Assembly (NCBI GenBank): GCA_028818705.1
Contig: JAPPNJ010000029.1
Span: 1-64,000 of the forward strand
Length of the DNA stretch: 64,000 bases
From: Candidatus Poribacteria bacterium
Lineage (GTDB): Bacteria > Poribacteria > WGA-4E > WGA-3G
Direction: 5' to 3'
In this document: one piece after another, positions 702 to 61,427 of the stretch
Layout of the letters: each line of letters starts with the position of its first letter
Position numbering within the stretch: position 1 is the first letter of the stretch
Notes under the pieces: model-generated
Databases searched by the model: none
The model's input: only the letters and a program-made list of their open reading frames with translations
Told to the model about the DNA's origin: nothing
Program-made: the position numbers and the translations under genes

Positions 702-765
702 AAATCAGAATCAACGGTATTCATGCCTTATGGCATTCCCCGGCTGCGCAGGCTTTCAGTTGTCA
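702..765. repeat. Intergenic hairpin repeat, family 1 (AATCAACGGTAT-arm-loop-arm-CCCCGG) joined to a family 3 unit (GGCTGCGCAGGCTTTCAGTTGTCAG)
   Basis: aatcaacggtattcatgccttatggcattccccgg; same flanks recur at 7.7, 23.9, 40.2, 41.8, 56.4 and 61.3 kb. Confidence 0.75.
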
Positions 766-7727: not shown

Positions 7728-7843
7728 AATCAGAATCAAAATCAGAATCAGAATCAACGGTATGAATGCCTTATGGCATTCCCTGGGTATGAAGTCCGTA
7801 TGGACTTCACCGGGGGTATGAATGCCTGTTAGCATTCCCCGCC
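7728..7843. repeat. Cluster of three family 1 hairpins with differing arms
   Basis: gaatgcc/ggcattc, gaagtcc/ggacttc and gaatgcc/agcattc arms with shared ggtat...ccgg flanks. Confidence 0.8.
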
Positions 7844-20250: not shown

Positions 20251-20325
20251 TACCCCGGACGAGATTTGAACTCGTGTCGCCGCCGTGAAAGGGCGGTGTC
20301 CTTGGCCAGGCTAGACGACCGGGGC
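20251..20325 (-). tRNA. tRNA-Glu (anticodon TTC)
   Basis: Reverse complement GCCCCGGTCGTCTAGCCTGGCCAAGGACACCGCCCTTTCACGGCGGCGACACGAGTTCAAATCTCGTCCGGGGTA folds as cloverleaf; loop CTTTCAC. Confidence 0.93.
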
Positions 20326-20337
20326 TCGAAAAAGTGG

Positions 20338-20410
20338 TGAGCCGTACAGGAATCGAACCTGTGACCCACTGATTAAAAGTCAGTTGCTCTACCTGCTGAG
20401 CTAACGGCTC
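20338..20410 (-). tRNA. tRNA-Lys (anticodon TTT)
   Basis: GAGCCGTTAGCTCAGCAGGTAGAGCAACTGACTTTTAATCAGTGGGTCACAGGTTCGATTCCTGTACGGCTCA; loop CTTTTAA. Confidence 0.95.
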
Positions 20411-23775: not shown

Positions 23776-24055
23776 TATGGTAGATTTTGGAATTACTTTT
23801 ACATCATGGATCGGAAATAGAAGAAGTCGGGATTTGGAAGAATCATAATCAACGGTATGAATGCTCTATAGCATTCAAAATCATAATCAACGGTATGAAG
23901 CCCCTATGGGCTTCACCGGGTATCTATGCCTAATCAACGGTATGAAGCCCGTGTGGGCTTCACCGGGCATAGACCGGGGTATGAATGCCTTAGGGCATTC
24001 CCCGCCTCCTACAGAAGGACTACTGGAATGTAAATGTATTTTCACAATTCACCAT
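23776..24055. repeat. MITE-like repeat with imperfect terminal inverted repeats, carrying nested family 1 hairpins
   Basis: Left TATGGTAGATTTTGGAATTACTTTTACAT; right AAATGTATTTTCACAATTCACCATA. Confidence 0.65.
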
Positions 24056-24298: not shown

Positions 24299-25492
24299 AT
24301 GCGAATTATTCTTTATACAGGTAAAGGTGGTGTTGGTAAAACAACTATTGCCGCTGCGACGGGTATCAAACTCGCTGCACTCGGCTACAAAACTATTGTC
24401 ATCTCACTCGACGTGGCGCATTCCCTCCGTGATGCCTTTGATAATCACGAAAAGTTAGTCCACCAGCACGAAGAGAAGCAAATTCAGATTAAAGAGAATC
24501 TCTGGATACAGGAGATTAACGTTCAAGAAGCGATAGTCGAATACTGGGACGATGTGTACAATTACATCCGTTCGTTGCTCAATCGTTCGGGGCTTGATAA
24601 TCTCGTTGCGGAAGAGATAGCGGTGTTTCCGGGGATGGAAGAGATTTGCGCGCTTCTCTATGTCAACCAATATGTCCGCGAGAAACGTTACGATGTGATT
24701 ATCTTGGACTGTGCGCCGACAGGGGAGTCGCTCCGATTTGTCAGTATTCCGACAACGCTGGAGTGGTACATGAACCACATTTTCAAATTAGAGCGTAATC
24801 TGGCGAAAGTTGCGGGGCCAGTGATTGAACGGGTGAGTTCGGTCCCAATTCCGAAGGACAACTATTTCCAGAACATCCAAGATCTTTTCGATAAATTGGA
24901 GGGGATCGACGATGTGCTAACGGATCCGAAAATCACGACTGTCCGTTTGGTGACGAATCCAGAGAAGATTGTTATCAAAGAGACGCAACGGGCATTTATG
25001 TATTTTTGCCTTTATGGGCTCTGTATTGACGCTATCATTATTAATCGCGTCTTTCCCGATGGAGTTGATGCGACATACTTTGAAGCTTGGAAACAGACAC
25101 AACAGCATTACATTAAAGAGGCAGTGAACTATTTTTCAGACGTACCGATCTGGAAGGTTAATCTTTTTGCTGAAGAAATTGTGGGTGAACACGGACTACA
25201 CCAGTTAGCAGATGTCCTCTATGCAGAGATTGATCCAGCAGATCGATTTTCTAACGATAGCCCGTATCAATTCCGAAAAACAGCCGATGCCTATCAATTA
25301 TCCATGCGTCTCCCGTTTTTAAGCAAAGAGGAAATTGGACTCACGAAACATGGCGATGAATTGATTGTCACGGTGGGTAATTTCAAGCAGCACGTTGCAT
25401 TGCCGCGGAGTCTCTCAAATAAAAGAACAACTGGGGCGAAATTGACTGGTGATCGGCTCGTGATTAAGTTTCAGGGAGAGCGCAGCGGATAA
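24299..25492 (+). CDS. ArsA/GET3-family ATPase with C-terminal HSP20-like domain
   Basis: YTGKGGVGKTTIAAATG, SLDVAHSLRDAF, LDCAPTGESLR; C-terminal YQLSMRLPFLSKEEIGLTKHGDELIVTVG. Confidence 0.88.
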   Translation: MRIILYTGKGGVGKTTIAAATGIKLAALGYKTIVISLDVAHSLRDAFDNHEKLVHQHEEKQIQIKENLWIQEINVQEAIVEYWDDVYNYIRSLLNRSGLDNLVAEEIAVFPGMEEICALLYVNQYVREKRYDVIILDCAPTGESLRFVSIPTTLEWYMNHIFKLERNLAKVAGPVIERVSSVPIPKDNYFQNIQDLFDKLEGIDDVLTDPKITTVRLVTNPEKIVIKETQRAFMYFCLYGLCIDAIIINRVFPDGVDATYFEAWKQTQQHYIKEAVNYFSDVPIWKVNLFAEEIVGEHGLHQLADVLYAEIDPADRFSNDSPYQFRKTADAYQLSMRLPFLSKEEIGLTKHGDELIVTVGNFKQHVALPRSLSNKRTTGAKLTGDRLVIKFQGERSG

Positions 25493-39178: not shown

Positions 39179-40063
39179 ATGAAAATTGGTATCCTCTCTC
39201 GGGGACCTCAAAACCACTCCACACGAAGCCTCAGTGAGGCTGCTTTCAAGGCAGGACACACCGCCGAAGTTTTAGATCCTTTCGGTTTCTATCTCCATAT
39301 CGGTAATGATAACAGTCGCATTACATATCAGGGCAAACCGGCAGAGGATTTTGATGTTCTGATACCACGCCTCAGCCGGACAACGGTGCGATACGGCGAA
39401 GAGGTCGTGGCGCATTTTGAGTGGATCGGTACACCTGTCGTGAACCGGGCAAGATCAATCGTGGCGGCACGACACAAATTCCACTCTCTACGCATCCTCG
39501 CACAGCAGGGTTTGCCTATCCCACCGAGTCTCACCGTGGGTTCTGCCGCATTTTTAGAGGACACCGTAGCCGAAATGGGAGACTATCCGTTTATTTTAAA
39601 ACCGTTTCATGGGACCCACGGCACGGGCGTTATGTTATTAGATACGCCGACATCGCTGACTTCAGCGGTGGATGCGCTGTGTGATCTCCATGAAGATTAC
39701 GTGATTCAGCCTTTTATGGCAGAAGCAGGCGGTGTTGACATCCGTGTTCTCGTCGTAGGTGGTAAAGCGATTGCGGCGATGAAAAGAAGTGCTCCCGTTG
39801 GCGAATTCCGAGCAAATGTTCATAGGGGTGCTTCCGGGGAAGCGGTCTCGCTACCGGATGCATACACCGATGTTGCCATCAGAGCGGCAGCAGCACTTGA
39901 GTTGGAGATAGCAGGGGTTGATCTGCTTCAGACGAATGCGGGACCTGTTGTGTTGGAAGTCAATCCGTCACCAGGGTTCGAGGAATTGGAATCTGTTACA
40001 GGTATCAATATTGCGGGTGCGATTGTTGAATTTGTAACGGCTTTTGCGAGAGACCGCGCTTAG
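39179..40063 (+). CDS. RimK-like ATP-grasp ligase
   Basis: KIGILSRGPQNHSTRSLSEAA, PFILKPFHGTHGTGVMLLD, VVLEVNPSPGFEELE. Confidence 0.92.
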   Translation: MKIGILSRGPQNHSTRSLSEAAFKAGHTAEVLDPFGFYLHIGNDNSRITYQGKPAEDFDVLIPRLSRTTVRYGEEVVAHFEWIGTPVVNRARSIVAARHKFHSLRILAQQGLPIPPSLTVGSAAFLEDTVAEMGDYPFILKPFHGTHGTGVMLLDTPTSLTSAVDALCDLHEDYVIQPFMAEAGGVDIRVLVVGGKAIAAMKRSAPVGEFRANVHRGASGEAVSLPDAYTDVAIRAAAALELEIAGVDLLQTNAGPVVLEVNPSPGFEELESVTGINIAGAIVEFVTAFARDRA

Positions 40064-40177
40064 TGCTGTTCCATGTGACCAAGTTATCGGGTTCTGGCAA
40101 GCGTATTGTAGCACAACTGTATGAAGATTAATTTTTTAATTTGGTGATTTTCAAACGTGCGATAATGCACGTCGCAT

Positions 40178-40282
40178 GAATCAGAATCAACGGTATGAAT
40201 GCCGTGTGGCATTCACCGGGTATTCATGCCGTAAATCAACGGTATGAATGCCTTAATGGCATTCACCGGGCATGAACCGGGG
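40178..40282. repeat. Family 1 hairpins, one nested in the loop of another
   Basis: Outer arms ggtattcatgcc (40219-40230) and gggcatgaaccgg (40268-40280) enclose a complete aatcaacggtatgaatgcc...ggcattcaccggg unit. Confidence 0.8.
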
Positions 40283-40379
40283 CAAGTACGCCGCAAAATC
40301 GCACTACTACGAACCCGCCCGTTTGTAGTAGGGCAATTCATTGCCCGTCAATTACCAGTTTATTTTCTGAAACTTCATT

Positions 40380-40506
40380 TATAGTAGATTTTAGAATTAC
40401 GTAGACAGTTTCCGAGAGGGCGAAGCACCAAAGCCGAAATTATCCTTGCCTAACAGAGGCGATTAGGATTCCGTAATATGTCCACATATTTTTATAATTC
40501 ACCATA
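40380..40506. repeat. MITE-like repeat, third copy
   Basis: TATAGTAGATTTTAGAATTAC ... CATATTTTTATAATTCACCATA. Confidence 0.6.
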
Positions 40507-41829: not shown

Positions 41830-41934
41830 TTGTCAGTAATCAACAGTATGAATGCCTTATGGCATTCTCCGGGTTTGCTACGCAAACCTTTCAGTTGTCA
41901 ATTTTCAGTAGCAATTGCCAAAGGAGAGTGAGAG

Positions 41935-56402: not shown

Positions 56403-56439
56403 AAATCAACGGTATAAAGCCCGTGTGGGCTTCCCCGCA
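56403..56439. repeat. Family 1 hairpin
   Basis: aaatcaacggtataaagcccgtgtgggcttccccgc. Confidence 0.75.
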
Positions 56440-59865: not shown

Positions 59866-59979
59866 TGGCTGTTGGCTGTTGGCAAGAGGTTATTCGTAAC
59901 TCGTAAATCCTCCTTGCTAATCGCTAATCGCTATTTAATAATCCAAGCACCTCTTTTCTTTCTTGCCAATTGCTATAGG

Positions 59980-60110
59980 GTCATAGCACCCACACCCTAT
60001 GAGGGTGGGGCTTGTGCTTCGTAGCAGTCTGCCTTCATTTGAAGGTCTTACGTCTGCTCCACATAGGGTTCTAAGCAGCCCCGTAAGATGTTGATAGCAG
60101 CGTTGATGTC
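59980..60110 (-). ncRNA. Candidate omegaRNA/right end of the TnpB element, overlapping the tnpB 3' end
   Basis: Downstream of tnpB, reverse strand GCACAAGCCCCACCCTCATAGGGTGTGGGTGCTATGAC forms a GC-rich hairpin; position matches known IS200/IS605 omegaRNAs. 5' limit is arbitrary. Confidence 0.45.
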
Positions 60111-61193
60111 TCTATCGTGGTCTGAACCACATTCAGAGCATATCCACTGCCTATCTGAAAGCGAAAGATTGTTATTCTGGTGTCCACAGTCCGAACACAG
60201 CTTACTCGTAGCAGTCCACCGCCCGACTTGACGGAACTCACGATTATGTTTCAAACACTTGTATTTCAGAATCTCAACAAACTGGGAGAAAGCCAAATCA
60301 GAGACTTTACGACCCCAAAGCCGTTTCATGCCTTCAAGGTTGAGCGTCTCGGTAGCGATAAGGTCAAACCGCCTACACAAATCAGTCGCAAGTTTCCAAT
60401 GCCAATCTTTGCGTTGGTTGGAAACTTTGCGATAGAGGGATGCGAGTTCACGGACACCACGATAGTAGTTGTTAGAACCTTTGATCTTTCGGCTGACGGC
60501 TTTATTGAGTTGGCGGAGTTGTTTCAAAGTCGTTCTCAAGGGTTGTGGGTGTTGTATCTTCTCACCTGTGTTCAGTGTCAGGTAGGTATCCATACCGAAG
60601 TCTACCCCTACGCTTTTATCTGTAGCGGGTAGCACTTCTTTGGACGTGTTATCTGTCACGACATAAAGCCAATACGTTCCAACAGAATCCCGAAGGATTT
60701 GGATATAACGGACATTGCCATGCCACTCACGATGTTGATGGAAAGAGAAATAGATACGCTCAAATTTCAAGGCATGCGCATTGTTATCCCACACCTTGAA
60801 CGAAATACGGATACGCCCTTGTTCAAGTTTATAGGCGGTTTGGAACTTCGCAGAACGAAACTTATGGCGTGCTTTAGGTTTAGGGGTGCCGACGCGTCTG
60901 CCGTTCTTGCCGTTCTTAAGCCAATCAAAGAAACGTTGCCAAGCGATGTGCAGGCGGATAATCACAGCGTCAAGTGTGTCACGAGGTATCCACGCCCAGT
61001 GTTGCTTGGTACGTTGGAGCAACTTCGTCAAGTGCGGTTGCAAGCGAAAGCGTCCAGCATATTTCCCATAGATGCGGTAGTAGCGTTTTTCCAAGCGGAG
61101 AAAGTGGTTATAAACATCGGCAAGGTCATCAAGCATGTTGCCCAAACGTTTATTTTTCGGATGGTTGCGTATCTGATATTTGTAGGTTCGCAT
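60048..61193 (-). mobile_element. tnpB: IS200/IS605-family TnpB nuclease, intact ORF, no tnpA seen
   Basis: RuvC motifs VGVDFGMDTYL, IATETLNLEGM, DHDRDINAAINI; zinc ribbon CSDCG...CSECG; left-end hairpin TGGCTgaacaacaAGCCA at 61215-61232. Confidence 0.9.
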
Positions 61194-61257
61194 TCAATTA
61201 TTATAGCATATTATTGGCTGAACAACAAGCCATAAACCCAATGGAGACGGGCTTTCC

Positions 61258-61331
61258 TCCCCCGGTGAATGCCATACGGCATTCATACCCGGTAAAGCCT
61301 ATAAAGGCTTTATACCGTTGATTCTGATTCT
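61258..61331. repeat. Two family 1 hairpins, inverted orientation, beside the TnpB left end
   Basis: Reverse complement aatcagaatcaacggtataaagcctttataggctttaccgggtatgaatgccgtatggcattcaccggg. Confidence 0.8.
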
Positions 61332-61427
61332 AAAGACAGAGGTTTCCAGCCCGAAGATTTGATGAATTTTGAAGGCTGTTTCGCTGATAACTACTAATAT
61401 AGAAAAGTAATAGAAAAGGAAAGTGTT

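Follow-up and report, generated by a model that had tools for sequence, protein, structure and literature searches.

Mobile hairpin units that nest inside one another in genomes of Candidatus Poribacteria

Introduction

The way in which small palindromic repeats spread is a question of long standing, both for the REPs of bacteria and for the double-hairpin elements and GC clusters of organelles. Bacterial REPs, which include the GTAG and CGTC super-families, are extragenic, high-copy, imperfect palindromes of 20–40 nt with a short loop; a few families are reported to be inserted within palindromes, and dimers are arranged head-to-head or tail-to-tail (PMC3733652). The GC clusters of yeast mitochondria are palindromes that move, turn over rapidly, merge and are shuffled, with a putative target-site duplication of AG (PMC4478555). 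The hairpin elements of Allomyces are reported to lack flanking duplications, and spread by reverse transcription has been suggested for fungal mitochondrial elements (PMC2800124). In the mitochondria and plastids of Volvox carteri, short palindromic repeats are described as often being inserted within one another so that larger elements result (PMC2670323).

Here, we describe a family of hairpin units found in a window of 64,000 nucleotides from Candidatus Poribacteria. Nested palindromes are already known from the organelles of Volvox, and the Poribacteria family is a variant of this known kind of element. Both consist of small intergenic hairpins with loops of 3–5 nt and of palindromes nested in one another, but the Volvox repeats reside in organelle DNA, and the accessible part of their description mentions neither a tag nor a fixed polarity, a rule of three entry sites or a parity of tags and hairpins such as we find below (PMC2670323). 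The elements of sponge mtDNA and Allomyces are likewise invading hairpin repeats, but are mitochondrial and different in sequence and structure (PMC2800124). In contrast to the putative AG duplication of GC clusters, the Poribacteria units show no clear duplication and small losses of target (PMC4478555). They resemble REPs in size, short loop, copy number and extragenic location, but their 5′ part reads AATCAAC...GGTAT with no terminal GTAG or CGTC tag, and unlike REP dimers they are co-oriented and nest in themselves (PMC3733652). A search of the open-access literature returned no account of fixed polarity, stem exclusion, three entry points and tag/hairpin parity.

Results and Discussion

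The source organism is a sponge-associated bacterium of the Poribacteria. The genome behind the window comprises 6.04 Mb in 232 contigs and contains 257 exact copies of a 15-base 5′ word, AATCAACGGTATGAA, compared to none of the reversed control. In the window, this head occurs exactly at 23847, 23885, 23932, 40185 and 40234; allowing up to three mismatches gives 11 matches against 2.2 expected, a number reached by 0 of 100 shuffles. Among 60 genomes, most of them metagenome assemblies, the head was present in 35, namely the source genome, 33 of 35 congeners with up to 131 copies each, and one genome from another genus of the same order, where it matches once. The pattern AATCAACGGTATGAA-N8-16-TTCACCGG, searched across species genomes, occurs in at least 78 stretches, and all matches listed are from Candidatus Poribacteria. 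The head is almost confined to one Poribacteria genus.

The head begins a hairpin unit of about 34 nt with the composition [R]AATCAAC-GG-TA-stem-loop-stem-CCG. The tag AATCAAC is followed by GG and by two unpaired bases, TA; then come a stem of 7–8 bp, whose loop mostly measures 4 nt, and CCG at the end. Both ends are constant even across unrelated targets. The stems vary: in a set of 106 distinct units, all with loops of 4 nt, compensatory covariation is strong (the sixth pair is G-C, C-G or T-A), and the family falls into about ten stem classes. Most units are extragenic, with 8 of 78 hairpin clusters located within ORFs as defined by crude calls. An Rfam scan of the window found two tRNAs (20251–20410, minus strand) and nothing else.

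Array 1 (23841–24006, plus strand) is the locus where the original prediction placed a unit within the loop of a sister hairpin. It opens with a stacked tag AATCAT (23841–23846), the first of five tags in the array as judged from the sequence and tag/hairpin parity. Unit 1 (23847–23877; head AATCAACGGTAT, stem GAATGCT/AGCATTC) has no CCG end; at its 3′ foot stands the next tag instead, a second stacked AATCAT (23879–23884). Unit 2 (23885–23918) is a complete 34-nt unit with stem GAAGCCC/GGGCTTC. The predicted nesting follows at 23919–23977, one base away from its first coordinates. An outer hairpin with left arm GGTATCTATGCC (23919–23930) and right arm GGCATAGACCGG (23966–23977) encloses an inner unit with an exact head and the stem GAAGCCC/GGGCTTC (23932–23965), and the last hairpin, GGTATGAATGCC/GGCATTCCCCG, occupies 23978–24004. 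Single-strand folding yields exactly the nested hairpins (z = −7.9). The gene at 24299–25492 near this array codes for an ordinary ArsA/Get3-type ATPase.

A second, independent nesting predicted at 40178–40282 was found at 40219–40280, also on the plus strand. This array 2 consists of a stacked tag AATCAG (40179–40184), unit 1 with stem GAATGCC/GGCATTC (40185–40218), the outer left arm GGTATTCATGCC (40219–40230) followed by the loop remnant GTA, an inner unit with an exact head (40234–40268), and the outer right arm GGCATGAACCGG (40269–40280). Single-strand folding again returns exactly the nested hairpins (z = −6.1). The two arrays have different classes of outer and of inner stem, different remnants of the loop and different flanks, and are therefore independent rather than one duplicated block. 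An ordinary RimK-type glutamate ligase gene is located near array 2 (39179–40063). A further array at 7728–7841 (plus strand) runs from four stacked tags to a head and three chained hairpins.

Relatives were compared for empty-site versions of such loci, as had been proposed along with the original prediction, and this comparison revealed unit-sized gains. In G035, flanks of about 95% identity lack the two isolated plus-strand units at 41838–41871 and 56404–56437; the empty sites read TCAGTAC GGTTTGC and CTACGC TCTACTCTC. A single unit with one stacked tag (703–742, plus strand) is missing at its ortholog in G022, which also has an empty site in place of a two-hairpin array with one stacked tag (61263–61329, minus strand) and lacks a larger stretch, 40121–40504, that contains array 2. 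One host hairpin, CAAATTTTACCC-GTGT-GGGTAAAATTTG in its empty form, reads GTA-unit-GGG when filled, and the same comparison identified further host hairpins with an entered loop, for example GCATAACCT-ATT-AGGTTGTGC. A locus with a long nested array in the source genome corresponds to a single unit in G035, which may alternatively reflect loss in G035 via recombination between repeats. Orthologous or paralogous sites exist with and without a copy, and the gains are unit-sized, which shows that the units are mobile. A TnpB family gene (NCBIfam NF040570; 60048–61193, minus strand) lies within 59976–61360, a stretch that also includes a hairpin array and is absent from the orthologous place in G035.

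The known empty sites show no clear or consistent target duplication; instead, 1–5 nt of the target are missing. The pairing of terminal inverted repeats with a target-site duplication that characterizes MITEs and other derivatives of classical DNA transposons was thus not found. IS200/IS605-type elements insert next to a fixed short target without duplication; at the unit sites no duplication is clear, but left flanks varied and no fixed tetranucleotide was seen.

We then asked where units enter a host unit. Nested pairs were analyzed in a 1.18-Mb sample of the source genome, mainly contigs already known to carry copies. The two arms of the outer hairpin share one class in 9 of 10 pairs, compared to 3.4 after shuffling (p = 0.0003), and the arms of the tenth are a near-match. 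Nesting recurs in further Poribacteria, among them one whose chromosome is a single contig, OX638316.1 (L308). When insertion offsets in the source genome were counted from the GTAT of the host unit, 18 insertions mapped to the loop (offset 7–10 nt) and 25 to the 3′ foot (offset 18–22 nt), 24 of the latter being family units and one following a non-family match; no insertion fell inside a family stem in this sample.

The stacked tags imply a third entry point, the tag/stem junction on the 5′ side. The prediction was that a unit entering between tag and stem leaves the host tag stacked in front, and that the host hairpin then follows the inserted unit as a chained hairpin. After removal of duplicates, stacked tags indeed associate with chains of at least two hairpins, both in the source genome and in relatives (p = 0.0002 each). 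Tags and hairpins are equally numerous in 55 of 72 arrays of the source genome (slope 1.05, r 0.93) and in 72 of 93 arrays of relatives (slope 0.99), counts that are partly non-independent because composite arrays are copied as blocks. Among arrays of at least two hairpins, equality holds for 22 of 34 in the source genome, where permutation gives a mean of 6.4, and for 25 of 35 in relatives, where it gives 11.2. In equal arrays a hairpin never stands ahead of its tag, a weak test of order since shuffling, too, often yields well-formed orders.

These observations uphold the original prediction insofar as units have entered loops repeatedly and independently. As the loop is but one of three points of entry, the rule is better described as entry at unpaired positions of the hairpin than as targeting of the loop alone. 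Each entry leaves the host stem intact, and properly nested trees arise in which each hairpin carries a tag of its own. The sequence of insertions can therefore be read from the tag counts and the order of nesting, and the arrays preserve their own history. At external sites, 4 of 81 distinct hosts have stems of at least 7 bp, where 0.8 are expected, and most of the sites lie outside any obvious perfect hairpin. With so slight an enrichment of host hairpins from other families, hairpin targeting is shown chiefly inside the family, and general targeting of hairpins beyond it was rejected.

Neighboring units have a fixed polarity. In the source genome, 111 neighbors no more than 120 nt apart have the same orientation and none the opposite; in relatives the ratio is 33:0 for neighbors within 150 nt. 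Distant neighbors are of mixed orientation. In the source genome, 52 of 78 clusters are oriented in accordance with the local GC skew at third positions, a modest bias (permutation p 0.001); relatives show the same direction in 23 of 32, where it is not significant (p 0.18). The G-rich strand is normally the lagging-strand template, which suggests that units tend toward exposed single strands. No bias relative to gene strand was seen, using crude ORFs, and a transcription-related orientation was rejected on these grounds.

We consider it moderately likely that the units are a non-autonomous mobile DNA hairpin that moves as a single strand into a folded, single-stranded target. That stems are never entered points to such a target. 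The unit would leave as single-stranded DNA, and the target would be a folded hairpin in single-stranded DNA, most likely of the lagging-strand template. A nuclease/ligase acting in trans would cut 5′ of [R]AATCA and 3′ of CCG, and the unit would be joined to the loop, the 3′ foot or the tag/stem junction in the orientation of the host. More tentatively, the units may represent a previously undescribed bacterial system of single-strand DNA mobility, in which unpaired hairpin parts are the target, polarity is fixed and nested trees accumulate. With the insertion history kept in the arrays and the exclusion from stems, the mechanism lends itself to direct tests with oligonucleotides.

Several other explanations were weighed against this single-strand transfer. 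The units might spread at replication with no transposase, if a stalled nascent strand jumped at a loop or foot, copied one unit and returned. Hairpin loops and feet are classic points of pausing and slippage, and they coincide with the observed entry sites; small target losses, uniform orientation and strand bias also fit such template switching. However, random microhomology jumps predict neither constant unit ends in unrelated targets nor absolute adherence to the host orientation. The constancy of both ends favors an enzyme with defined ends, and we regard template switching as somewhat unlikely. Tandem duplication and unequal recombination could also have built the arrays, with nesting as chance matching among few stem classes. 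There are indeed only about ten such classes, composite arrays recur, and at L042 the difference from the ortholog lies between repeated 15-mers. Against this stand the matching arms of nested pairs (9 of 10 where 3.4 are expected), the tags stacked in front in numbers equal to the hairpins, and the occurrence of single-unit empty sites, which together make this origin improbable. Reverse transcription of a hairpin RNA would account for the polarity, the hairpin form and the lack of target duplication. Yet, orientation is unbiased to genes, RVT_1 was undetected in the copy-rich genomes G035 (131 copies), G016 (83) and G012 (74), and there is no correlation with copy number (rho −0.15). Reverse transcriptase was therefore rejected as the mover, and RNA-mediated spread appears very improbable.

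If the single-strand transfer is enzymatic, the mover would most plausibly belong to the Y1 (HUH) enzymes of the genus. Y1 genes are present in the genome, and two are classed by NCBIfam as REP-associated tyrosine transposases. It is thus conceivable that the units are REP elements that RAYT genes in these genomes mobilize. This reading is consistent with small hairpins carrying GGTA 5′ of the stem, with units on both strands upstream of the C179 RAYT of the source genome, with an AATCAAC array near one RAYT of G022, and with a weak correlation between copy number and number of RAYT hits (rho 0.34, p 0.045). In contrast to REPs, the AATCAAC unit does not as a rule flank a cognate RAYT: such an element lies nearby at 2 of 30 loci in the RAYT search, and these mostly negative flanks led us to reject RAYT as the obvious mover. 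One RAYT subgroup is flanked instead by arrays of a GTAG-tagged hairpin, for example GGTAG-GTTCGG...CCGAACC, and such arrays flank the RAYT genes at L188, L190, L191, L192 and L195; this hairpin is probably the REP family that belongs to these RAYTs. In the other subgroup, most genes are flanked by neither repeat. Copy number does not track the best RAYT match (rho 0.17), and G012, with 74 copies, has no close RAYT, while G006, with 18, has no RAYT match. Mobilization by RAYT is therefore unlikely.

The possibility that AATCAAC heads many separate hairpin families was rejected, as nearly all matches belong to one GGTAT family, except for 12 that are f2-like. The related f2-like hairpin, AATCAACACGGAATGCGCGTGTGGCATTCCG, has the AATCAAC tag in common with the units. 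Its repeats are found beside or around units at L117, L146 and L151, where units occupy its loop. A separate repeat, GTCGGGATTTGGAAATCCCTCCTACAG, also often hosts units, and in the cases seen (window 23825–23840; L023, L030 and L145) it does so in the same relative orientation.
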